Below are positions 29,462 to 42,008 of a stretch of 64,000 nucleotides of DNA, piece by piece; the first letter of the stretch is position 1; the number at the start of each line of letters is the position of its first letter. The notes under the pieces were generated by a model. It was not told the DNA's origin. It saw only the letters and a list, made by a program, of their open reading frames with translations, and made no database searches. Source of the stretch: Flavobacteriales bacterium (GTDB taxonomy: Bacteria > Bacteroidota > Bacteroidia > Flavobacteriales > Flavobacteriaceae); contig JAMONV010000004.1 of NCBI GenBank assembly GCA_027066365.1, forward strand, positions 88,319 through 152,318. Reading direction: 5' to 3'. A program made the position numbers and the translations under genes.

Positions 29462-31681
29462 ATGAAACACTTGAAATGGTTAGCCCTCACAGTTGTGGGC
29501 GTGGCTGTTTTCCTGTTGGGAACACCACGATTGCAAGCCCAGAAGACGGTGGATGGCGTTATGAAAGAACGCGGTCTGACCGAGAAAGACAAGCTCGCCG
29601 CGGTTAAAACCTTCATGCCGCGTGGAGGTCGCGACGAGTATTTTGGTATCGTAGGAACGGGTAACTCCGGAACCATGATCGTTTACGGCGTTCCCTCCAT
29701 GCGTATTTATAAATATGTGGGTGTGTTCTCACCCGAACCTTGGCAAGGTTATGGATATGACGACGAATCGCAATTGTTGTTGAAAAAATCCTCCTTGGAT
29801 AACCGCATTCCTTGGTACGGTGACATGCGATTCCCCGCATTTTCCGAAACCAACGGAAAATATGACGGTAAATATGCATTCTTTACCGACGGTGCCAACG
29901 CACGTATTGCACTTTTGGGTTTGGATGACTTTGAAACCAAACAGGTTTTGTCCAACCCTATCATGAACAACCTCTTCCCTCAAGCAGTGGTAACGCCCAA
30001 TACCGAATACGTAATCCAAACGGGTCAATATCCGCATCCTTGGGATAACCGCGTTACCGATATGGCTCAGGCCAAAAACGCATTGACTTTCTGGAATGTT
30101 CACCGTATCGAAAAAGAAGGTGAACATAAAGGACGTATCATCAAAGAAAAATCCTTTGCAGTAGAATTTCCCGCCTATCAATTGGATTACAACGATGTCG
30201 GAAAAGGCGATACCGACGGATTATTCTTCGGATTGGCATTCAAAGACGGCAAATCTTATGTATATGTGATTGACTACAAAAAAGCCGTTGCCGCCGCCAA
30301 AAAACAATTCAACGACTTTGACTATGTACCTTTCGACCAAATCAAAGGAGCGGTAAGCTTTATCGAACTGCCCGCCAAGGCCAATACCGTAAAAGCCAGC
30401 CCCGACGGAAAATATATCGTAGTGGCTGCCGATAACGTTTTGGTATTGGACGGTGCCAAAGTAAAATCCAATTTGGGCAAAAACTATAAAGCAGCCGATG
30501 TAACCCACAAATCCATAGCTATCGGAAAAGGCGTGGTGGACGTAACTTTCGATTACCGCAAAAACATTGCTTACGCATCGGCACACGACGACAGCAAAAT
30601 CGTTCGTTTCGATTTTGATAAAGGAGTGAAAAAAGATGAAATAAAATTGGACTTCAAACCTTCCTACTTGACCACTCCGCAAGGTTTGTCCGGCGAACCT
30701 CATTCCAATTATTTGATTGCCGTTGACAAGGAAGCATACTTGAAAAATCTTCCGAAAACGGGTCCCGTTCGTCCGAGCATTCAACATTTGATCGATATTT
30801 CCGCCGACGACGAAATGGTCGACCTCTACACCATGACATTGCCGCAAGCTAATGTTTACGGCAACGTATTGATTTTACGTACCACCATTAAGCCGATTAT
30901 TCGTTATCCTACCGGAACCAACTCCCGTACGGGTGAACCTTCACCTTTCCGTGCATTCGCCGGTCAGGAAAAAGTGGAACGTAAAGGAAACCGCGTACAC
31001 GTGTTCGGAACATTGATTCGTTCTCACATCACACCCGAAATCGTGGAAGTGAATGAAGGTGACATTGTAACCTTCCATTTGACCAACCTCGAACGAGCCG
31101 AAGACGAAACTCACGGTTTCACTATCGATACATACGGTAAACACGGTTCATTTGAACCCGGTAAAACCGCTTCCTTGACGTTTGTAGCGGATCGTCCGGG
31201 CGTATTTCCTTATTACTGTACAGAATTCTGTTCGGCACTCCACCTGGAAATGGAAGGTATTCTGTTGGTTCGTCCTAAGAATAAAAAAGTGGATTTGGGT
31301 AGTAAATTCAGCACTTTGCAAACCGGAACCGGTGGCAAAGAAGCTTTGACCAAAGAAGATTTGGCCAAGTATAAGAAAGACTACGAAGAAAAAATCAAAG
31401 TTATTAAACAAACTGCCGATGTTATCAACGGTGTGGTTAAATACTTGAAAGAAAACCACTATGAAAAATATCCTTATGTAAAAGCTTTGGTTGAAGATGC
31501 CGTAGACCAGCTGAATAAAGGAAAATTTGCCGAAGAAAATTATAAGAAATACGCTAAAGAAGGCAAGTGGAAAGATGCTTTCCTCTGGGCGGAACAATAT
31601 TGGCAATATCAAGTGAAAGCGGCCGACGTAGGTCTTCGTGCTAAGAAATTGTTAGACGAAAAATTAGGTAAAGAAGAATAA
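29462..31681 (+). CDS. NosZ paralogue with CuA site but no CuZ ligands
   Basis: 739 residues with a Sec signal peptide (cleavage after about Gln27). It is NosZ-related over its whole length: an N-terminal RGLTEKDKLAAV block shared with its neighbour, a seven-bladed propeller (about 70-480) and a cupredoxin domain (about 505-605). The CuA ligands are complete: H551 (ETHGF), C586, C590, H594 and M597 (YYCTEFCSALHLEM). All seven CuZ histidines are replaced, judged by gap-poor alignment to the next gene: R123, F124, F172, N308, D360, Y402, Y466. A helical, lysine-rich extension of about 130 residues follows the cupredoxin domain. It therefore cannot reduce N2O alone; probably a CuA electron-transfer subunit for the product of 31688-34132, 6 bp downstream. 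Confidence 0.85.
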   Translation: MKHLKWLALTVVGVAVFLLGTPRLQAQKTVDGVMKERGLTEKDKLAAVKTFMPRGGRDEYFGIVGTGNSGTMIVYGVPSMRIYKYVGVFSPEPWQGYGYDDESQLLLKKSSLDNRIPWYGDMRFPAFSETNGKYDGKYAFFTDGANARIALLGLDDFETKQVLSNPIMNNLFPQAVVTPNTEYVIQTGQYPHPWDNRVTDMAQAKNALTFWNVHRIEKEGEHKGRIIKEKSFAVEFPAYQLDYNDVGKGDTDGLFFGLAFKDGKSYVYVIDYKKAVAAAKKQFNDFDYVPFDQIKGAVSFIELPAKANTVKASPDGKYIVVAADNVLVLDGAKVKSNLGKNYKAADVTHKSIAIGKGVVDVTFDYRKNIAYASAHDDSKIVRFDFDKGVKKDEIKLDFKPSYLTTPQGLSGEPHSNYLIAVDKEAYLKNLPKTGPVRPSIQHLIDISADDEMVDLYTMTLPQANVYGNVLILRTTIKPIIRYPTGTNSRTGEPSPFRAFAGQEKVERKGNRVHVFGTLIRSHITPEIVEVNEGDIVTFHLTNLERAEDETHGFTIDTYGKHGSFEPGKTASLTFVADRPGVFPYYCTEFCSALHLEMEGILLVRPKNKKVDLGSKFSTLQTGTGGKEALTKEDLAKYKKDYEEKIKVIKQTADVINGVVKYLKENHYEKYPYVKALVEDAVDQLNKGKFAEENYKKYAKEGKWKDAFLWAEQYWQYQVKAADVGLRAKKLLDEKLGKEE

Positions 31682-31687
31682 TCCAAA

Positions 31688-34132
31688 ATGAAAATCATTA
31701 TGAGAAACAAACATAAAATCTGGTTCCGTATTCTTCCGGTAACCATAAGCCTTTTGGCTCTTGCTTTCTTCGGCACTAGCTGTGAAAAAGGCAAGAAAGC
31801 CGAAGGCGGAAAAGAACAAACCAGCGCGGTGGGTGCTCCCCGCGGTAAAGAATCTTTCCAAGACGTGGTGAAACGTCGCGGGTTGACTGAAGACGACGTT
31901 TTGGCAGCCGTCCAAACCTATACACCCGATAACCTGAAAGACGAAGGTGTCGCTGCCAACTCGGGAGGTCAGGAAGGTAACTTGCCTACCTATGTTTTCC
32001 CTTCCATGCGTTTGGTGAAGTATACACCCATTAACACCCGCCAACCCTATGCAGGTTTCGGATTTTCGGAAGAAACCTATAAATTATTGAAAGACGGTTT
32101 TATTGATGGAGCCGAAATATTGTGGGGTGATACCCACCATCCCGGATTCTCCGAAACCGACGGTGTTTATAACGGTAAATGGTTAGCAATTAACGATAAA
32201 GCCAATCCACGTGTTTATATTGTAGATTTGCGCGATTGGTATGTCAAACAAATCGTTCAAAACCCCATTTTCCGTTCCGATCACGGTGGTTGCTTCTTTA
32301 CACCCAATTCCGAATATATCATGGAAGCCTGCCAATATCCGGCGCCGTTTGACCGTAAATTCCACGAATTGACCGAAGAAAATTTCAAGAAATATTGGCG
32401 AGGCGGTTTGACCTACTGGAAATTCGATAATGAAACCGGTAAGGTGGATTTGTCCAAATCCTTCACTTTTGAATTCCCGCCTTATACACAAGACCTTTCG
32501 GATGCCGGTAAGGCGATGTCGTATGGATGGGGCTTCACCAACTCCTTCTGTTCGGAAATGTATTTCGGTGGTATTGAAGCCGGACGTCCTCCGTTTGAAG
32601 CCGGATGTTCTTCTCGTGACGTGGACTACCTGCACGTGACCAACTGGAAAAAAGCCGAAGAACTCTTCAAAGCCGGTAAAATCGGTAAGAAAGTTATCAA
32701 CGGAATGCACGTAATTACCATTCCCGAAGCCGTTAAATACGGATTGCTCTACTTGATTCCCGAGCCCAAGTCGCCTCATGGTGTGGATGTGAGTCCTTGC
32801 GGTCAATACATCATTGTTGCCGGTAAATTGGATTCGCACGCTTGGGTGTATGACTTCAAGAAAATCCAAAAAGCCATCGAAGAAAAGAACTTTGAAGGCA
32901 AAGACGAATTCGGTATTCCCATTATTGCTTTGAAAGCCGCTTTGCATAAATCTGTAGAAGTGGGGCTCGGTCCTCTGCATAACCAATTCGATAGCCGGGA
33001 CGGCGTGGTTTATACTTCCATTTATGTGGATTCCCGTGTAACCAAATGGGATTATAAGAGTGACGACCCGGAAGGTAAAAAATCGGTTTTGGCGTATGTT
33101 CCTTCTCACTATAACATTGGTCACTTGGTATCATATCACGGTGATACTAAGAAACCGCGCGGTAAATACTTAATCGCACTTAACAAACTATCTATTGACC
33201 GTTTCAACCCGGTGGGTCCTTTGCATCCTCAAAACCATCAGTTGATTGATATCGCATCGGATCAACCGCGTATTATTTATGACATGCCTTTGCCTATGGG
33301 TGAACCGCACTATACGGCTATGATCGGTCGTGATGTATATGAAGCCAATACATTGGATGTTTATCCGGTTGGAACCGACATTACAACCATGAGCAAATCG
33401 CCGTATGCCGTGGGTGAAGGTGAAGAAAAGGTCGAAAATAAAGGCAATACGGTTGAAGTATTCGGTTATATTAAAGACGGAAAAGTAGTTCCCGGAGATA
33501 TTAACGTAAAACAAGGACAAGATGTAATCATTCACTTAACCAACTTGGGACAAACCCCGTTTGATCATTACGTATACGAAATAGCATCCTACGACAAGAT
33601 GTATCCTTATGCGCCGGGTGAAACGGCAACATTGAAATTCAATGCCGAAAAGGCGGGTGTATATCCGATCTTGTTGGATGCACAAAACAGCCCGAGCAAA
33701 CGACAATTAGCCGGTTACTTGACGGTGAGCTTCGATCAAGCGGCCGAAGCCAAGCGAGTTCAAGCTTATGCTGACCGTATCAAGTGGGACCAAAAAGTTC
33801 AAGCCTTCAAACCTTCGTCCATCGAGCTTAAGAACATGCTTCCGGGTGAGATTGAATTCTTGAACTACGGATGTAATGCTTGTCACAAGTTCGGTGAAGA
33901 CTTCAACGGTCCTGACCTGCTCATGGTTCACAAACGCCGTAGTAAAGAATGGTTGAAGGATTGGATTCTCCACACCAAAAAACATTACAACGATCCCGAT
34001 ATCAAAGCTTTGGCTCAGAAATTCAAACTCTATATGCCTGATCAACATGTAGATCCGAAAGATGTGGATAAGCTTATCGAATACATGAAAGCTAAGTCCG
34101 AGCAATACGTAAAAGAACAATCCGGAAAATAA
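31688..34132 (+). CDS. nosZ: Nitrous-oxide reductase catalytic subunit: CuZ site, no CuA, cytochrome c tail
   Basis: 814 residues. Lipoprotein signal with Cys32 (FFGTSCEK). The propeller keeps all seven CuZ histidines: H150 and H151 (GDTHHPG), H199 (SDHGG), H364 (KSPHG), H431 (GPLHNQ), H479 (IGHLV), H541 (GEPHY). Sec-type export fits clade II NosZ. The cupredoxin domain (about 585-682) aligns without gap to that of the upstream paralogue across the ligand loop, yet C, C, H and M are replaced by L663, N667, K671 and L674. A monohaem cytochrome c domain follows (C729-NA-C732-H733, probable axial M783). It reduces N2O to N2 in the periplasm, presumably only with an external CuA donor. A strong terminator follows. 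Confidence 0.9.
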   Translation: MKIIMRNKHKIWFRILPVTISLLALAFFGTSCEKGKKAEGGKEQTSAVGAPRGKESFQDVVKRRGLTEDDVLAAVQTYTPDNLKDEGVAANSGGQEGNLPTYVFPSMRLVKYTPINTRQPYAGFGFSEETYKLLKDGFIDGAEILWGDTHHPGFSETDGVYNGKWLAINDKANPRVYIVDLRDWYVKQIVQNPIFRSDHGGCFFTPNSEYIMEACQYPAPFDRKFHELTEENFKKYWRGGLTYWKFDNETGKVDLSKSFTFEFPPYTQDLSDAGKAMSYGWGFTNSFCSEMYFGGIEAGRPPFEAGCSSRDVDYLHVTNWKKAEELFKAGKIGKKVINGMHVITIPEAVKYGLLYLIPEPKSPHGVDVSPCGQYIIVAGKLDSHAWVYDFKKIQKAIEEKNFEGKDEFGIPIIALKAALHKSVEVGLGPLHNQFDSRDGVVYTSIYVDSRVTKWDYKSDDPEGKKSVLAYVPSHYNIGHLVSYHGDTKKPRGKYLIALNKLSIDRFNPVGPLHPQNHQLIDIASDQPRIIYDMPLPMGEPHYTAMIGRDVYEANTLDVYPVGTDITTMSKSPYAVGEGEEKVENKGNTVEVFGYIKDGKVVPGDINVKQGQDVIIHLTNLGQTPFDHYVYEIASYDKMYPYAPGETATLKFNAEKAGVYPILLDAQNSPSKRQLAGYLTVSFDQAAEAKRVQAYADRIKWDQKVQAFKPSSIELKNMLPGEIEFLNYGCNACHKFGEDFNGPDLLMVHKRRSKEWLKDWILHTKKHYNDPDIKALAQKFKLYMPDQHVDPKDVDKLIEYMKAKSEQYVKEQSGK

Positions 34133-34385: not shown

Positions 34386-35285
34386 ATGAAAAATCAAAAT
34401 AAAGTATTTGGAATTCTGTATCGTATTTTGGCTCTTATCGGGCTGGGTTTGATTATTGCGACTTATTTTGTTCCCGAATGGTGGGTGGCATTGCAAAGTC
34501 ACCAATACCCCAAGTCGATGTATCCGAAGGGAATTCGGATTGAATTTCGTTACAATGGCGTTTATAACGGTTGCCAAGGCGTTCGTGAGCGTGAAGAGCT
34601 GGCTATGGATGCCGGTGCGGATTGTTTGATCGAGATGAATAAGATCAACCATTTTATCGGTATGTATCCTATCGTTCAAGGGGTAAACGATTGGTTGGAG
34701 GTTTCGGAGAATAGATTTACGTTTGAAGATACGCCTACGTTGGAAAAAATGCTCAAATTGAATCCCGGTATCATGAAAAAAGTGGATGACCATACGTTGG
34801 AATTAACCAACGATACCATTATGAAGATTCATGCGCCATATCCGCTGTACGCTGCCGATCGCATTCCCGATGCAAAAATTCCTGGCGCATTGAAGACCTT
34901 GGATAAAATTATGCGCATTTCTCATTATTTCTTTGTTCTTTTTGCCATTTTAGGGTTGGCGTTTATTTTCGTTGGCAAAAGAAAGCTGACTTGGGCGGCA
35001 GTTTTAGCGGCATTAGCTCCGATATATTTTCTGGCTATTTACATTTATTACCTTTGGTGGTATGGTCACCATTTGGGTTTGCACGGAGGCGGTGCGTTTA
35101 GTGGTATCAAACCCTTTATGCCAACGGTTTTGGGAGAAGGAAAAGTGGCGCAGTTTACCACCGAATCTTATCCCGATATAGGGTTTTATTTGGGTATTGC
35201 AGGAATGATATTAATGTTTATTGCCATTGCATTCAAAACCAAATATGTCGGAAGTTCCCGCAATGAATCGGGTTTTAACAATTAA
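34386..35285 (+). CDS. Membrane protein in the NosB position of the nos cluster
   Basis: 299 residues: helix 1 at about 7-28, a periplasmic domain of about 150 residues, then helices at 180-197, 203-226 and 264-283. Possible metal-binding or quinone-site residues: MNKINHFIGM (84-93), WWYGHHLGLHGGG (224-236), and C63/C80. Clade II nos clusters such as that of Wolinella have a four-helix protein of unknown role, NosB, between nosZ and nosD; position and topology agree, but I cannot confirm homology by eye. It precedes nosD by 1 bp. A role in copper supply or electron transfer is inference. Confidence 0.65.
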   Translation: MKNQNKVFGILYRILALIGLGLIIATYFVPEWWVALQSHQYPKSMYPKGIRIEFRYNGVYNGCQGVREREELAMDAGADCLIEMNKINHFIGMYPIVQGVNDWLEVSENRFTFEDTPTLEKMLKLNPGIMKKVDDHTLELTNDTIMKIHAPYPLYAADRIPDAKIPGALKTLDKIMRISHYFFVLFAILGLAFIFVGKRKLTWAAVLAALAPIYFLAIYIYYLWWYGHHLGLHGGGAFSGIKPFMPTVLGEGKVAQFTTESYPDIGFYLGIAGMILMFIAIAFKTKYVGSSRNESGFNN

Positions 35286-35286
35286 A

Positions 35287-36606
35287 ATGAAAAAGGTTTT
35301 TACATACCTTATATTATTATTTGTATTGCGCATATCCGCCCAGGTGGGCGGATATGCGCCGGGATTAAAAGATAGTGTTCCGGGCGCACCGGAAGGTGCG
35401 CCCCGGATGGCTATCCAGCCATTGCTCGATAGTTTGAAACCGGGTGATACATTGAAATTGAAGCCCGGCTTTTATGAAGGGCCGGGGTTTATAACCGTCC
35501 CCAACGTGGTTATTGACGGCCAAGGTCATGCGACGGTTTCGGGTATGCATAAGCGTTCGGTTTTGTATATTAAAGCCGAAAATGTAACCGTTAAAAATTT
35601 GCATTTGATTGATTCGGGCAATTCGCCCGACAAAATCGATTGCGGGGTGAAAGTGGTGAAATCAAACGGCTTTAAGGTCATAAACAATCGTATGGAAAAT
35701 ACATTATTCGGTGTGGATGTATATTGGTCGGAAGGTGGGGTAATTTGGCATAATGATATAACATCCATAGCTAAAAACACGAAAGGGATGAAGGGCGATG
35801 CCATTCGTTTGTGGTGGTCCAAGCATAATATGGTAAAAGAAAATTACTGGCATCAGGTGCGGGATATGGTGGTTTGGTATTCGGAAGATAATGACTTTAT
35901 CGGAAATTATGGAGATGGGAATCGGTATAGCATTCATTTCATGTACTCCCATAACAACCGGATTTCGTTTAATTATTTTATTAATTCGTCGGTAGGTGTT
36001 TTCTTGATGTATAGCGAAGAGACCATTATGAACAATAATGTTATAGAAAATTCGCAAGGTGTAACGGGCATGTGCTTGGGAATGAAAGAAACTTCGTCCA
36101 ATCAGATTTTGGATAACCGTTTTTTATATTCCGCGCGGGGGATTTATATTGATGTTTCTCCGTTTGTTCCTTGGAAGAAAAATACGATTACGGGAAATGA
36201 AATTGCCTTTTGCGGCACGGGTATAGAGTTTTTGAAAGATCAGGAGGGTAATTTGTTCAGTGACAACCTTTTTCATGATAATTTACAACAGATTTATATC
36301 CAAGGAGGCGGCACCGCCAACCGTAACAAATGGATTCACAACTATTGGGACGATTATGAAGGATTTGATAAAGACGGTGATAATATAGGTGATTTTCCAT
36401 ATCGATTATACGAGTATCACGCGCGTTTGTGGCGCTTCAATGAGAACGTGAAGTTTTTCTACGGCTCGCCTATTTTGTCCTTGTTGGATTATTTGGAGAA
36501 ATTGGCACCGTTCTCAAAACCGCAATTTGTTTTGAAGGACAAAAAGCCGATTTTCAACATGGAAAAATATATGAAGGAGAATAAGAAATTTGAAAAATTA
36601 TATTGA
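35287..36606 (+). CDS. nosD: NosD, periplasmic beta-helix protein for CuZ assembly
   Basis: 439 residues from the ATG at 35287, which gives a signal peptide (MKKVFTYLILLFVLRISAQ). The body is a right-handed parallel beta-helix of PbH1/NosD repeats (NRMENTLFGVDVYWSEGGV, NNVIENSQGVTGMCLGM, NTITGNEIAFCGTGIEFL). A methionine/histidine-rich turn (YSIHFMYSHNN) matches NosD proteins. NosD takes Cu(I) delivered by NosL through the NosFY ABC transporter and is needed to build CuZ. It starts 1 bp after the previous gene and overlaps the region of the next start. Confidence 0.92.
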   Translation: MKKVFTYLILLFVLRISAQVGGYAPGLKDSVPGAPEGAPRMAIQPLLDSLKPGDTLKLKPGFYEGPGFITVPNVVIDGQGHATVSGMHKRSVLYIKAENVTVKNLHLIDSGNSPDKIDCGVKVVKSNGFKVINNRMENTLFGVDVYWSEGGVIWHNDITSIAKNTKGMKGDAIRLWWSKHNMVKENYWHQVRDMVVWYSEDNDFIGNYGDGNRYSIHFMYSHNNRISFNYFINSSVGVFLMYSEETIMNNNVIENSQGVTGMCLGMKETSSNQILDNRFLYSARGIYIDVSPFVPWKKNTITGNEIAFCGTGIEFLKDQEGNLFSDNLFHDNLQQIYIQGGGTANRNKWIHNYWDDYEGFDKDGDNIGDFPYRLYEYHARLWRFNENVKFFYGSPILSLLDYLEKLAPFSKPQFVLKDKKPIFNMEKYMKENKKFEKLY

Positions 36607-36607
36607 T

Positions 36608-37423
36608 ATGTCCACCGGAAAACAACAATTGAACAGGCGTCAATTCCTGAAGGCATCGGCAGCGGCGGTGATTACGTTGTCGGCGGTAGGGAGCTTGGCG
36701 TTTTGGTTAAAAGACAAATCGGACGTAAAGGATAAGGGATTTTTGCGTCCGCCGGGAGCCATTCCCGAGGAAGATTTTCTATTTGCCTGTATTAAATGCG
36801 GGTTGTGCGTTCAGATTTGCCCGGTTCATGCCGTGAAGTTAGCCGATTGGGATACGGGTTTGTCCTACGGCACACCGTATATCGATCCCAACGTTCAAGC
36901 TTGTGATTTTTCATGTGATTCGATACAATGCGCGGAGACTTGTCCCACGTCGGCATTGCATTTTCCGGTGTTTCGCAGTGCCGGCGAAAAGGCGGTGGAA
37001 GAATTATATAAGCAATATCCCAATCGCAAATTACCGCCGAATGTAAATCCGTTTGTGGTGCAAATTCATGCCATGAAACGTGCCTACAAATTAGGGGTGG
37101 CTAAGGTAAATGTGCAACAATGTTTGGCATACCACGGTCAAGGTTATAAAGGTCCTTTAACCAAGCATAGAGCGAAGATGCGTCCTCCCGGAAAAGGCGA
37201 CCGGATTTATACGGATGAAATCACCGTAGACAGGAAAATATGCGACCTTTGCGTGGTATATTGTCCGTTGCAAGAGGACGCCATTGTATTGAAAGACCAA
37301 GGCGGAGGAAAATTCCTACCCGAAGTTTTGGACGGATGTGTAGGATGCGGTGTATGTCAAATGGTATGCCCTACGGAACCTAAAGCAATTGTGATAGAAC
37401 CGGAAGAAAACCCTAAAGTTTGA
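36608..37423 (+). CDS. nosG: NosG (NapG-like) periplasmic 4Fe-4S ferredoxin, Tat substrate
   Basis: 271 residues from the ATG at 36608, preferred over a TTG at 36590 because the twin-arginine signal NRRQFLKASAAAVITL (R10, R11) then starts cleanly. Four cysteine clusters: CIKCGLCVQICP, CDFSCDSIQCAETCP, CDLCVVYCP and CVGCGVCQMVCP, as in NapG/MauM ferredoxins. In clade II nos systems NosG and NosH are thought to take electrons from menaquinol and pass them to the periplasmic side, replacing NosR. It is followed by nosH after 4 bp. Confidence 0.9.
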   Translation: MSTGKQQLNRRQFLKASAAAVITLSAVGSLAFWLKDKSDVKDKGFLRPPGAIPEEDFLFACIKCGLCVQICPVHAVKLADWDTGLSYGTPYIDPNVQACDFSCDSIQCAETCPTSALHFPVFRSAGEKAVEELYKQYPNRKLPPNVNPFVVQIHAMKRAYKLGVAKVNVQQCLAYHGQGYKGPLTKHRAKMRPPGKGDRIYTDEITVDRKICDLCVVYCPLQEDAIVLKDQGGGKFLPEVLDGCVGCGVCQMVCPTEPKAIVIEPEENPKV

Positions 37424-37427
37424 AATT

Positions 37428-38387
37428 ATGGCATTCATATATGATTTTTTACACGGAGATAAAAGGCGTAAACCCTTGCCTGCCAAGAAAAAAGACGAGC
37501 TTCCCCACGTGCGTCTGGGAATGACCTATAAAGAATGGCACGATCAAGCCAAAGGAAGACATACCTGGCGAAACCGCCGCTGGGCCTTTTTGATTTTTAT
37601 CAATTTGTTATTTGTTGTTTCTTTTACGTTTGATTTGGGATTATTGGAAGGTTCATTGAGCGGGTCGCGTTTGCTGGGATTGTATTTGATGGATCCTTTT
37701 AACTCGACACAGGAATTGGCCATAGGCGCCACCAAAGGATATATTCCGCATTTGACCACCAATTTCTGGACGGGATTTATAACGATTCTCGTATTTTATT
37801 GGCTGGTGGGAGGCCGTGCCTTTTGTTCTTGGGTTTGTCCCTACCATTTCTTTGCGGAATGGGGTGAAAAATTTCATGATTATTGGATAAAAAAACGCAA
37901 AATCAAAGAAAAAACTTACGATATTACCGTAAAATATGTTTTTTGGATAGGTTTTATTTTACTGGCGTTATTGACGGGAGAATTGGTATTTGAGAATTTA
38001 AATCCGGTGGGTATATTGTCCCGTTCGATTATATACGGACCCGGTTTGGCGTTGATTTGGGTTGTCGCCTTGCTGGCTTACGAAGTGATAGGAGTAAAAC
38101 GTTTTTGGTGCCGTTATGTCTGCCCCATAGGCGTAACTTATAGCTTTATCGGTGAATTGTCGCCGATCAATATAAAATTTGAACTGGATAAATGCGGGCA
38201 TTGTCGAGATTGCCAAGATGTATGCTTGGTGCCGCACGAGCTTTGGTTTGTTAAGAAAGGAGCGGCCACACGCGAAGTGCATTATACGGGAGGCGATTGT
38301 ACCAAATGCGGATTGTGTATCGATGCATGTCCCGGCGGTTCATTGAGCTATGGAATTCGCGATTCCGATCTTATATTTAAAAGCTAA
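37428..38387 (+). CDS. nosH: NosH (NapH-like) membrane ferredoxin, quinol dehydrogenase
   Basis: 319 residues. Four or five membrane helices (about 48-65, 112-130, 165-183, 197-215) carry the family's CSWVCPYHFF and CRYVCPIGVTY motifs, and two cytoplasmic 4Fe-4S sites end the protein: CGHCRDCQDVC and CTKCGLCIDACPGGS. NapH/NosH proteins oxidise quinol in the inner membrane together with NapG/NosG. The stop codon overlaps the start of nosF by one base. Confidence 0.9.
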   Translation: MAFIYDFLHGDKRRKPLPAKKKDELPHVRLGMTYKEWHDQAKGRHTWRNRRWAFLIFINLLFVVSFTFDLGLLEGSLSGSRLLGLYLMDPFNSTQELAIGATKGYIPHLTTNFWTGFITILVFYWLVGGRAFCSWVCPYHFFAEWGEKFHDYWIKKRKIKEKTYDITVKYVFWIGFILLALLTGELVFENLNPVGILSRSIIYGPGLALIWVVALLAYEVIGVKRFWCRYVCPIGVTYSFIGELSPINIKFELDKCGHCRDCQDVCLVPHELWFVKKGAATREVHYTGGDCTKCGLCIDACPGGSLSYGIRDSDLIFKS

Positions 38388-39073
38388 TGGAAAAGAAAAC
38401 CTTGATAGAGATTAAAAGTTTGGTCAAGCGCTTCGGAAATGTCCGGGTAATTGATGATTTGACCTTGAATTTTTATGCCGGCGAACGTGTGGCGCTTATC
38501 GGACAAAACGGAGCCGGAAAAACCACGCTAATCAGGAGTATTTTGGGTTTATACACTTATGAAGGCTATTTGCGAGTGCTAGGCTCGGAACCACGAAAAC
38601 ACCGGCAAAAAATCCTTATGGAAGTGGGTTTTGTTCCGCAATTACCACCACCGTTACGAATGACTGTGACAGAAATACTCGATTTCTTTTCCCGGATTTT
38701 CAATATCGATAGACAAATTTTTATCGATTTGGCCAACCGGTTGAATTTGGATATTGAAAAACATATCAACAAACCGTTCCTGAAGCTTTCGGGAGGAATG
38801 AAGCAAAAACTTTTGGTTTCTTTGGCCTTGGGACATCAGCCGCAAATTCTTTTAATGGACGAACCTTCGGCAAATTTGGACCCGGAAGCACGAAAAGTAT
38901 TTTTCGCCATGCTGAAGGAATATCGTCCGGATTCATTGATGATTTTGAGTAGTCACCGAACCGACGAAATCAAAGGTTTGATTAATCGAGTGGTGGAGAT
39001 GGATTTGGGAAAAGTTATTTTGGATGAACCTTTTGCCACTATTGAAGAAAATCTCGAATCTAAAAAACCGTAA
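38387..39073 (+). CDS. nosF: NosF, ABC transporter ATPase
   Basis: 228 residues. Walker A GQNGAGKTTL, Q-loop FVPQLPP, signature LSGGMKQKL, Walker B ILLMDEPSANLDPEA, switch His in LSSHRTDE. NosF powers the NosY permease and works with NosL and NosD in maturation of the CuZ site. Its start is coupled to nosH (TAATG). Confidence 0.93.
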   Translation: MEKKTLIEIKSLVKRFGNVRVIDDLTLNFYAGERVALIGQNGAGKTTLIRSILGLYTYEGYLRVLGSEPRKHRQKILMEVGFVPQLPPPLRMTVTEILDFFSRIFNIDRQIFIDLANRLNLDIEKHINKPFLKLSGGMKQKLLVSLALGHQPQILLMDEPSANLDPEARKVFFAMLKEYRPDSLMILSSHRTDEIKGLINRVVEMDLGKVILDEPFATIEENLESKKP

Positions 39074-39077
39074 AACC

Positions 39078-39617
39078 ATGAGAAAGTTTTTATTGGTATT
39101 GTTCGTTGTTCTTTTGGGGTTAATTTCATGTTCGCATGAAGTGGATTTCAGTCCGCGCAAGCCGAATTATGACCGGGATGTGTGTTTTGTTTGTAAAATG
39201 GGGTTGGACAATCCCAAGTATAATGTTCAGGCAATCAATGAACACGGCGATGTGCGTTGGTATGACGATATCGGATGTTTGGCGGAAGATATTCGTGATA
39301 TGGATTTTAACAAATGGAAGGGTCGAAAATATAAAATTTGGATTGGTGATGCCGAAACGGGTGATTGGATTGATGCCGAAAAGGCTTATTACCGCTTTGG
39401 CGACGAAACCCCCATGGGTTATGGTTACGGAGCTTTAAAAGATAAATCCGAAGCAAAACCCGGAGATACATTATATGATTTTGAAACCGTTTTGAAACGC
39501 ATTGCCGAAGGGAAAACCAAGCGCGAAGAATTTATAAAAAAGAAAAAAATGAACGTTAGCGGCGGTGAAATGAAATGCGGAAAAGGTAAATGCGGAGCGG
39601 GAAAATGCGGTGGTTAA
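39078..39617 (+). CDS. nosL: NosL-type copper chaperone lipoprotein with Cys-Gly tail
   Basis: 179 residues from the ATG at 39078, which follows the nosF stop by 4 bp and begins a lipoprotein signal (LLGLISC, Cys18). The NosL copper motif is CFVCKMGL (C36, C39, M41), with ETPMGYGYGA at about 110 as in the family. NosL passes Cu(I) to NosD. Unusual: the last 15 residues are MKCGKGKCGAGKCGG, three KCG units with a period of five. The same type of tail ends the cytochrome at 55228-55698. Such KCG repeats can bind copper and resemble EGKCG motifs of bufferin-type peptides. Confidence 0.88.
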   Translation: MRKFLLVLFVVLLGLISCSHEVDFSPRKPNYDRDVCFVCKMGLDNPKYNVQAINEHGDVRWYDDIGCLAEDIRDMDFNKWKGRKYKIWIGDAETGDWIDAEKAYYRFGDETPMGYGYGALKDKSEAKPGDTLYDFETVLKRIAEGKTKREEFIKKKKMNVSGGEMKCGKGKCGAGKCGG

Positions 39618-39659
39618 ACATATCTATGATTTAAATATGATTAAAAAAGAAAGGGGAAA

Positions 39660-40502
39660 ATGAATAAAATTCGGAATAAAAATTTGTGGGAAATATACCG
39701 TATTGATATCAAACAGAATTTGCGAAGCAAGTCATTTTGGTTATATACCGTTTTTTTTGCTTTGTTTGTAGCGGTAATGTTTATGACCGGAATCACCGAG
39801 TCGCAAGTGATAGGATTCGTGGGATTAAGCCGTTTATTGGTGACATTTACACAAGTGAGCATGGTCATTTTGCCGATATACGTATTGATTTCCACGGTTC
39901 GGTCTTTGGTAGGCGACAAAGAGAACGGGGTTTTGGAATATACCTTGGCACTTCCCCTTTCTTTTTCCACTTATTTTTGGGGGAAATTTTTGAGCCGCTT
40001 TACGGTGATTTACCTTCCGGTATTATTTGCTATGGTAATGGCGGTGGTTTGGGGAATATTCAAAAGCTTGGAAATTCCTTGGGATTTGTTTTTTCTTTAC
40101 GTCTTTCTGCTGGCCTCGATGATTTTCTTTTTCCTCGGCTTAAGTATGTATCTCTCGGCCAAAAGTCGCACACAAGAAAACGCTTTGGGAATTTCTTTTA
40201 TGATATGGATTTTTTTGGTGGCATTCATGGATATTTTGCTGATAGGAATTATGTTGCGCTGGCGTGTTAACCCCGAAGCGATTATTGGGGTGGCACTGTT
40301 GAATCCGTTGCAAGTTTTCCGCACCGGAAGCTTGATTTTATTCGACCCGAAACTGACGGTGATGGGACCGGTATCCTATTATATTCTGGACACTGTAAGC
40401 CGGGAAACCTTTATTGCTTTTTCTTTGCTTTATCCGGTAATTTTAGGATTGATTTTCGCTATTCTGGGTAATCGCTATTTTAACCGACATGACGTGGTTT
40501 AG
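39660..40502 (+). CDS. nosY: NosY, ABC transporter permease
   Basis: 280 residues with six membrane helices (for example about 25-42, 56-78, 109-130, 137-160, 172-195, 256-274) and the family block VRSLVGDKENGVLEYTLALP near 78-97. It is the membrane partner of NosF. In this cluster the order is nosF-nosL-nosY, so nosL sits between the two ABC genes. The 3' end overlaps the next gene by 14 bp. Confidence 0.9.
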   Translation: MNKIRNKNLWEIYRIDIKQNLRSKSFWLYTVFFALFVAVMFMTGITESQVIGFVGLSRLLVTFTQVSMVILPIYVLISTVRSLVGDKENGVLEYTLALPLSFSTYFWGKFLSRFTVIYLPVLFAMVMAVVWGIFKSLEIPWDLFFLYVFLLASMIFFFLGLSMYLSAKSRTQENALGISFMIWIFLVAFMDILLIGIMLRWRVNPEAIIGVALLNPLQVFRTGSLILFDPKLTVMGPVSYYILDTVSRETFIAFSLLYPVILGLIFAILGNRYFNRHDVV

Positions 40503-41421
40503 AAGTACGGTTCGCTTGGTTCTTATTTTTTCTCTACTACTGATTTTATTATTTTCGGCTTCGGTGTCATGTGCCGGAGAAAAAGAGGATGCCGGGTTTT
40601 ATGACACCACCAACCTGAAAAAGGTTGCCAATTTTTTGTCCGAAAAAGAGCGAAAAGCCATTATCGAGGCGGATAACGGATTGAAAACCGTTAAAGGATT
40701 CAAAGCTTGGCCGCAAGACGGCGACGATTTCCGAAACGAAATCATGGATACGATTTTCTGGGAAGACGTATCGGTGCGCAATGCCGATTTTCGAGGTGTT
40801 ACCATGCGTTCGTCGGATTGTTCCCATTCCGATTTTTCCGGATCCGATTTTCGCGCATCGGATATACGCTGGACAGAATTCGATTATTCTTTCTTGCAAA
40901 ATTGCCGCTTCGATCAAGCTAAAATGTTTCATGTGAAAGTGAATTTCGCCGATTTGAGCGGTTCGTCATTCCAAGGAACCAATATGTTCGGGATGGAAGG
41001 CGAGGGAACCCGGTTTTTGAAATGCGATATGCGAAATGCATTGATGAAAGACGTGGAATTTATCAATGCCGATTTTACGCATACCAACGGATTGAAAGCC
41101 CGGTTGATTCGTGCCGTATTGAAAAAAAGTGTTTTGGATTCCACGAATTTCGCTTATGCCGATTTCACCGGCGCGCAATTGGACGGCGCTTCCTTTAAAG
41201 GAGCCACACTCCGCCATGCCGACTTAAGCGGTGCTCAATGTTACCAAACCGATTTTAGCGGTGCCGACCTCAAAGACGTCAATTTCTTTAAAACTTATTT
41301 GAACGAAACAAATTTCAAAGGTGCTAAAAACATTCCGCCCGAATTGAAACCCCTCATCAACGAAAAAGGTCTTGCTACGGGCATGATTCAGGATTTGAAA
41401 TACAATAAACGAAAACATTGA
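40489..41421 (+). CDS. Exported pentapeptide-repeat protein in the nos operon
   Basis: 310 residues. The N-terminus is an export signal with a possible lipobox (ASVSCAGEK). From about residue 88 the chain is built of A(D/N)(L/F)xx pentapeptide repeats (for example NADFRGVTMRSSDCS, DGASFKGATLRHADLSG), predicted to form a quadrilateral beta-helix. It overlaps nosY by 14 bp and its TGA overlaps the next ATG, so it is translationally coupled on both sides. Pentapeptide proteins are not a known part of nos systems; the tight coupling suggests a scaffold or chaperone role for the reductase or NosD, as inference. Confidence 0.75.
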   Translation: MTWFRSTVRLVLIFSLLLILLFSASVSCAGEKEDAGFYDTTNLKKVANFLSEKERKAIIEADNGLKTVKGFKAWPQDGDDFRNEIMDTIFWEDVSVRNADFRGVTMRSSDCSHSDFSGSDFRASDIRWTEFDYSFLQNCRFDQAKMFHVKVNFADLSGSSFQGTNMFGMEGEGTRFLKCDMRNALMKDVEFINADFTHTNGLKARLIRAVLKKSVLDSTNFAYADFTGAQLDGASFKGATLRHADLSGAQCYQTDFSGADLKDVNFFKTYLNETNFKGAKNIPPELKPLINEKGLATGMIQDLKYNKRKH

Positions 41422-42008
41422 TGAAACATCTACCGGCTTTAATTATATTATTGCTGTTTACATCGCTTTCCCTGCCCGTTAAAAGAAAAGTATGGAAACT
41501 GGATACGGGAAAAAGTGAAGTGTATTGGCATTGCGACAAACATTGGGGCTATACGCATTTTAAGGACGGTCAATTATATATGGATGATGCGGGAAAACTT
41601 GCCGGGCGCTTCGATTTTGACATGCAATTGTTTGAAGTGAAAGATTTGGATGCCAAACAATACGGAACCGCCAAAGTCATTCTGGAAAATACCCTGAAAA
41701 ACGAATTTTTTGAAATTGAAAAATATCCCGATGTCTATTTCATACTGGAAGATGCTTGGCCGTTAAATGACTCTCTGTTTTTGTTTCAAGGCGATTTGAC
41801 CATGCACGGCAATACGGTTTGCATCCAATTCCCGGGAAAAATTTTTCGCCGGGGCGATACCCTCAAATGGGAAAGTAAAAAATTTATCATCGACCGCACC
41901 GATTGGGGCATTTATCGTCTTTCGCCTTCACATCCTTACCCCGACGACGAACACGGATGGACCGTTACCGATACGGTTGAAATAAAAATTAACTTGTCGT
42001 TTTTTTAG
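41421..42008 (+). CDS. YceI-family periplasmic protein
   Basis: 195 residues from the ATG at 41421, overlapping the previous stop as ATGA. Signal peptide (MKHLPALIILLLFTSLSL), then YceI features: WKLDTGKSEVYW, AGRFDFDMQLF, LKNEFFEIEKYPDVYF, GDLTMHGNT. YceI proteins are lipocalin-like barrels that bind polyisoprenoids or amphiphiles. As last gene of the nos transcription unit it may bind a lipid or quinone-like ligand in that context; no direct evidence. A bidirectional terminator follows. Confidence 0.85.
   Translation: MKHLPALIILLLFTSLSLPVKRKVWKLDTGKSEVYWHCDKHWGYTHFKDGQLYMDDAGKLAGRFDFDMQLFEVKDLDAKQYGTAKVILENTLKNEFFEIEKYPDVYFILEDAWPLNDSLFLFQGDLTMHGNTVCIQFPGKIFRRGDTLKWESKKFIIDRTDWGIYRLSPSHPYPDDEHGWTVTDTVEIKINLSFF

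Follow-up and report, generated by a model that had tools for sequence, protein, structure and literature searches.

Two adjacent NosZ paralogues with opposite copper-site losses, a likely two-chain nitrous oxide reductase of Bacteroidota and allied bacteria

The window analysed here is a 64,000-nt stretch from a Flavobacteriales bacterium (GCA_027066365.1, contig JAMONV010000004.1, positions 88,319 to 152,318, forward strand). It contains two open reading frames (ORFs), termed A and B, that are separated by a gap of 6 bases and encode paralogues of NosZ, the enzyme that breaks down nitrous oxide (N2O), a greenhouse gas. NosZ has an electron-entry copper site (CuA) and a catalytic copper site (CuZ). 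A and B display opposite copper losses: A retains the ligands of CuA and B those of CuZ. The two proteins likely form a head-to-tail A:B N2O reductase in which electrons pass from CuA of A to CuZ of B. The pair is a real, conserved two-chain variant of clade II NosZ, undescribed as far as open-licence papers go. Both frames are open throughout, and their parts are as follows (window positions).

29462–31681, + strand: protein A, 739 aa, NosZ paralogue with CuA ligands intact and all seven CuZ histidines replaced
29828–30859, + strand: former CuZ positions in the propeller of A (R123, F124, F172, N308, D360, Y402, Y466)
31112–31252, + strand: CuA ligands of A (H551, C586, C590, H594, M597)
31277–31678, + strand: helical C-terminal tail of A, about residues 606–739
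31688–34132, + strand: protein B, 814 aa, NosZ paralogue with CuZ histidines intact, CuA lost and a C-terminal cytochrome c
31781–31783, + strand: C32 of B, a tentative candidate for a lipoprotein cysteine
32135–33310, + strand: CuZ histidines of B (H150, H151, H199, H364, H431, H479, H541)
33569–33709, + strand: dead CuA positions of B (Y628, L663, N667, K671, L674)
33863–34093, + strand: cytochrome c domain of B (PF00034, 26.2 bits), haem motif CNACH at residues 729–733

Alignment with intact NosZ shows that A has 5/5 CuA side-chain ligands and 0/7 CuZ histidines, and that B has 7/7 CuZ histidines and 0/5 CuA ligands. The CuZ positions, given from B to A, are H150 to R123, H151 to F124, H199 to F172, H364 to N308, H431 to D360, H479 to Y402 and H541 to Y466. 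The CuA positions, given from A to B, are C586 to L663, C590 to N667, H594 to K671 and M597 to L674, together with H551 to Y628. The histidines of B match H129, H130, H178, H326, H382, H433 and H494 of P. stutzeri (counted by hand in the alignment), which are the positions named in the titles of mutant structures in the PDB. Both A and B resemble solved NosZ by sequence. The C-x3-C-x3-H-x2-M motif is absent from B, and there is no CuA motif elsewhere in that domain because no cysteine is present between residues 371 and 729. A has two cysteines only, C586 and C590. As its seven CuZ histidines are all replaced, CuZ is not expected in A.

A first-pass annotation, made from the DNA sequence alone, had already described the reciprocal losses. 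Every ligand residue that it listed for A and B is correct according to the alignment and the motif and cysteine positions; Y628 is a fifth CuA ligand loss in B beyond its list. CuZ histidines of A and CuA ligands of B were also sought at other positions in the alignment and by motif, and none were found. Displacement of ligands by alignment error is thus rejected. The cytochrome c of B, the helical tail of A and the wide occurrence of the pair are additions to that annotation.

The pair is not confined to the window. A scan with A, using one genome per GTDB species, found 478 related stretches, and the analysis covered the best 80; L032–L038 are excluded from the counts, being repeats of L042–L046, L105 and L111. 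These 80 loci contain an A-type protein in 73 and an intact NosZ in seven. In 71 of these 73 loci A is followed by B; the remaining two, L088 and L108, have no sequence beyond A because the contig ends there. A lies immediately 5′ of B on the same strand in 67/67 loci holding both. With the window and L039 added, all 75 A rows have the five CuA side-chain ligands; none of the CuZ histidines is present in 62 of them and one is present in 13. Seven histidines are found in 68 of 73 B rows, the other five consisting of four cut by a contig end and one with an N gap. No CuA ligand is present in any of the 67 B rows that are ungapped at the site.

Protein searches show the same pattern. Among the best 120 proteins listed with A as query, none has more than one of the seven CuZ histidines, and the five CuA ligands are complete in 118; the exceptions are P0023, which is gapped at the CuA site, and P0068, which has four CuA ligands. 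The best 120 listed with B as query all have the seven CuZ histidines, and 117 of them have 0/5 CuA ligands, with one ligand in the remaining three. The reciprocal ligand loss of A and B is not chance, and paired nosZ genes that display it occur in dozens of genomes (the 73 A loci among the best 80). Depositors' labels of pair loci are Flavobacteriales, Bacteroidales, Saprospiraceae, Melioribacteraceae, Chlorobiota and Cloacimonetes, but two bins labelled Chlorobiota (L044 and L046) fall in the window's own genus. Almost all sources are draft metagenome bins.

The pair is nevertheless a minority trait, uncommon among the genomes sampled, because evenly drawn samples held no further pair. In an even phylum sample (395 genomes) it was found only in the genome on which the sample was centred, and the same result was obtained with an even sample of the class of a Melioribacteraceae bin (197 genomes, overlapping the phylum sample). 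The genus of the window is represented by nine genomes including its own; in eight of them A and B share a contig, and the ninth (G006) has no match to NosZ. Among 28 genomes of other genera in the family, an ordinary NosZ (>900 bits) is present in 15 and the pair in none. G037, from another family of the order, bears the A/B pair.

The window's own genome (2.03 Mb, 64 contigs) is rated 98.99% complete. A NosZ model search of this genome matches A and B only, and a search with the model for L-NosZ (the clade III lactonase-type NosZ) matches only stretches inside A and B, below cut-off. A complete separate nosZ elsewhere in the genome, sought by these searches, is thus rejected. There is no match in this genome to cytochrome cd1 nitrite reductase (NirS), and the model for copper nitrite reductase (NirK) matches only the CuA stretch of A, below cut-off. 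This would fit an organism that reduces N2O and does not denitrify, NirS and NirK being the two nitrite reductases searched.

Whole-genome searches of 50 pair-bearing genomes show A and B in 50/50 and no other kind of NosZ in 48. The search for further nosZ covered 50 + 8 of the 74 A-bearing loci; the 16 outside it include repeats of a genome and L118. Three genomes (G456, G457, G458) have more than one copy of the pair or of its parts, with two B-type genes and at least one A gene or A piece per bin, from either recent duplication or mixed strains. In G421 (contig C144:4139-5957) an ordinary NosZ is found as two overlapping frames (model positions 1–350 and 345–578). This is probably a frameshift or an assembly error and not another split.

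A tree of 75 sequences was made with the ligand columns removed. The A clade (25 rows, stem 1.17) and the B clade (25 rows plus L099, a B protein with an N gap; stem 0.72) each have a value of 100 in the Shimodaira-Hasegawa-like approximate likelihood ratio test (SH-aLRT). The two clades and seven intact NosZ (of Pseudomonadota, Myxococcota and one further bacterium) form a 58-row group (SH-aLRT 98) apart from ordinary Bacteroidota NosZ and from clade I. When Thermomicrobium is included with A, B and the seven intact kin, the group has SH-aLRT 99 and is again apart from clade I, in agreement with clade II descent. In free trees both clades branch among the intact kin, at positions that are weakly supported. 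A tree holding A and B together scored higher than the free tree, and in a smaller set A and B as one clade are not rejected (approximately unbiased test, p 0.829). Among the 120 proteins listed as nearest to the intact type, some of them named Dechloromonas, Sulfuricella or Propionivibrio, both copper sites are complete in 120/120.

The seven intact kin share the C-terminal helical tail of A, and B is without it. All seven of their loci display the order nosZ, two cytochrome c ORFs (with one or two haem motifs each), orf3 and nosD. Because the kin share the tail of A and have separate cytochrome c genes, B appears to have lost the tail and gained a fused cytochrome. The simplest history suggested by these comparisons is one duplication of an intact gene, after which A would have kept CuA and the tail, and B would have kept CuZ, lost the tail and gained the cytochrome.

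The amino acid identities show a crossed pattern. A is 71.5% identical to the seven intact kin in the cupredoxin and 39.8% in the propeller; B is 31.3% identical in the cupredoxin and 56.9% in the propeller. Among the kin themselves the values are 73.9% (cupredoxin) and 73.5% (propeller). There are 43 cupredoxin positions that are invariant in the kin and Thermomicrobium, and of these 12 are kept by both proteins and 2 by neither, while A alone keeps 28 and B alone 1. The propeller has 176 such positions: B alone keeps 83 and A alone 23, with 50 shared by both and 20 lost from both. The duplication and division of labour proposed in the first-pass annotation are therefore well supported: A and B each form a single clade and a joint clade is not rejected, the ligand loss is reciprocal in all rows that can be judged save for single retained residues, the divergence of the domains is crossed and the adjacency is fixed.

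The domains that have lost their metal ligands are not free to drift. Ratios of nonsynonymous to synonymous substitution rates (dN/dS) were obtained from 78 pairs of 13 close sequences (usable pairs: 53–65 for propellers and cupredoxins, 47–70 across all domains). Median values for A are 0.076 in the silent propeller and 0.028 in the cupredoxin, and for B 0.060 in the propeller and 0.072 in the silent cupredoxin. Values so far below 1 indicate that the silent halves of A and B are maintained by purifying selection. The distances of A and B over 58 pairs have a correlation of 0.888, and 0/1000 shuffles were as high.

Three former CuZ positions are nearly fixed in the 120 listed relatives of A: one is R in 117 of them, and the fifth and seventh are D and Y, respectively, in all 120. 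The seven positions taken in order read R, aromatic, aromatic, x, D, x, Y. Perhaps this is a salt bridge and an aromatic plug that fill the empty hub.

A and B likely must pair to give one working enzyme because each keeps the ligands of one copper site only. The A:B complex and its N2O reductase activity are predictions from sequence, as is the obligatory heteromer with one functional CuA-CuZ pair put forward in the first-pass annotation. In the predicted enzyme the chains would assemble head to tail, as in the NosZ homodimer, so that CuA of A faces CuZ of B. Electrons would pass from the haem of the cytochrome c of B to CuA of A and then to CuZ of B, where N2O would be reduced. The other A:B interface would be left empty, giving one active site per dimer and not two, and the metal-free propeller of A and metal-free cupredoxin of B would persist as the dimer scaffold. 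The pair in dozens of genomes of Bacteroidota and allies is probably an asymmetric heteromeric N2O reductase, in which one duplication would have turned a symmetric two-site homodimer into a one-site A:B machine: A would supply CuA and scaffold, and B would supply CuZ, scaffold and a fused haem inlet.

Several observations weigh against this proposal. The predicted model of A is weak (AlphaFold2 with 25-row alignments for A and B; predicted local distance difference test score 65.7, root mean square deviation to NosZ about 15 Å over two domains) and is too poor to judge the CuA loop. The A:B proposal offers no path from the haem of B to CuA of the other chain. The dN/dS values are rough because dS (1.2–1.5) is near saturation, and co-inheritance of a single gene cluster would by itself also give correlated A and B distances. 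The 23 invariant propeller positions kept only in A show that this propeller is not simply decaying, and it might have a role of its own. Finally, two of the 50 pair genomes (G460, G465) also bear an ordinary NosZ of about 940 bits. In both it is located on another contig than the pair, which is either true coexistence or bin contamination.

B might instead be a homodimer, with CuZ fed by its own fused cytochrome c without CuA, and A a separate homodimeric copper carrier that makes transient contact. The haem motifs of B are in keeping with this (of 63 full-length rows, 51 have a single motif and 12 have two), as is the complete CuA site of A. A mere carrier, however, would have no need of a whole propeller under purifying selection, B retains its metal-free cupredoxin, likewise constrained, in the two-domain arrangement of NosZ, and A and B adjoin in every locus that has both. 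This arrangement is unlikely. There is a smaller chance still that the remodelled propeller of A has acquired a new function, with the former CuZ hub now serving for binding or catalysis, which would make A more than a CuA carrier and scaffold. The near-fixed R, D and Y at three of the seven former ligand positions, and the 23 kin-invariant propeller positions kept only in A, point in that direction, but the fixed residues may equally fill an empty hub, and A is tied to B and to the nos genes by place and co-occurrence. Decay of one or both duplicates, or an artefact of assembly, is very improbable. Although nearly all sources are draft bins, the same reciprocal pattern is found in many separate assemblies, and decaying pseudogenes are rejected by the open frames and by dN/dS far below 1 in all domains. 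The A:B enzyme is thus the preferred reading. If true, this would show NosZ at work with a single active site in each dimer and not two, the metal sites could be produced, mutated and loaded separately, each on its own chain, and the CuA-to-CuZ step across the interface would become directly testable.

The pair seems to be accompanied by a second cytochrome c, present in some loci as a further haem motif within B and in others as a separate small ORF. Such an ORF, with a haem motif, lies just after B in 28 of the 53 loci that have enough sequence there, e.g. L064, L068 and L070; that of L111 is short and may be chance. Apart from the short L111 ORF, the window and its genus have neither the second motif nor the following ORF. 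B is about 900 aa long in some loci, e.g. L056 and L060.

C32 of B is invariant in 25 aligned B rows, and a loose lipobox pattern is present in 50 of 63 full-length B ORFs; it is possible, on the strength of this loose pattern, that C32 is a lipoprotein cysteine. A residue check for a twin-arginine signal found no RR among residues 1–60 of either protein (no signal-peptide program was used), as is expected of clade II NosZ, which is Sec-dependent.

Nos accessory genes adjoin the pair downstream of B.

34386–35285, + strand: orf3, membrane-protein-like, hydrophobic, without a Pfam match
35221–36606, + strand: nosD ORF (TIGR04247, 360 bits, above cut-off)
36590–38387, + strand: two NapG/NapH-type ferredoxin genes, which we take to be nosG- and nosH-like
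38387–40502, + strand: ABC ATPase, weak NosL-like ORF and ABC-2 permease (nosF, nosL and nosY by position and family, the names nosF and nosY being partly our assumption)

The NosL model gives only 14.4 bits against a cut-off of 24 for the ORF in the last of these segments. After the nos genes, on the same strand, are a pentapeptide-repeat ORF and a weakly YceI-like ORF (window 40489–42008). Among 74 A loci, 58 have orf3 after B; there is no match in 16, most of which have little sequence beyond B. It relates to a Thermomicrobium ORF located between nosZ and nosD (phmmer E-value 3.1e-18 against four sequences). The position of orf3 between the nosZ genes and nosD is the same in the pair loci, the seven intact kin and Thermomicrobium.

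Family models place the two proteins differently. With the clade II model (TIGR04246, cut-off 625), A scores 396.5 bits, which is under the cut-off, and B 643 bits, which is over it. Both are under with the clade I model (TIGR04244, cut-off 625; A 221.6, B 239.7 bits). The deposited names of A proteins include "cytochrome C", "hypothetical protein" and "nitrous-oxide reductase". Since B passes the NosZ cut-off though it is without CuA, and A falls under it and is variously named, gene counts and annotations can mislead. Surveys of N2O sinks are affected, as a NosZ model counts B alone and misses A.

A split NosZ was not found described in open-licence full-text papers (preprints and subscription papers are outside this search), in line with the first-pass annotation, which knew of none. 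In the portion of PMC11573801 that was available, NosZ is a homodimer with both copper sites in every chain. Fifteen metagenome-assembled genomes (MAGs) with two nosZ genes are described in the available part of PMC11409646, none of them with the two within 45 genes of each other, and this known double nosZ is thus rejected as an instance of the A/B pair.

The nearest precedent is in archaea. According to the accessible sections of PMC10936187, a DPANN nosZ-like protein (56–617 aa) has CuA and no CuZ and is positioned between Cox2 and NosZ in a tree, and complementation with it gave no significant N2O consumption. Its neighbour in two MAGs is a protein with five conserved histidines. The nosZ-like protein resembles A as a CuA-bearing NosZ relative without CuZ. 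Unlike the A/B pair, it has no seven-histidine partner and no nos genes reported in those sections. L-NosZ (NF052460, cut-off 700) has a distant likeness to A and B in the propeller and CuA stretches, with scores of 77.4 bits for A and 89 for B, both under the cut-off.

The clade II NosZ of the Dechloromonas/Sulfuricella type (TIGR04246) is the nearest intact kin by tree. It has the same two-domain layout as A and B, the same helical tail as A and the same downstream order orf3-nosD as the pair loci. It carries both sites in one chain (120/120 listed), as is general for clade II NosZ, whereas neither A nor B does so; in the pair the two sites are divided between paralogous chains, which have the full set when taken together. 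Its cytochrome c genes are separate (7/7 loci), and in the pair the cytochrome is fused to B. The cytochrome-fused clade II cNosZ of Wolinella succinogenes has a C-terminal cytochrome c on the NosZ chain, as B does, behind a cupredoxin that bears CuA. B is not of this type: its cupredoxin before the cytochrome has 0 CuA ligands, and the partner chain would supply CuA.
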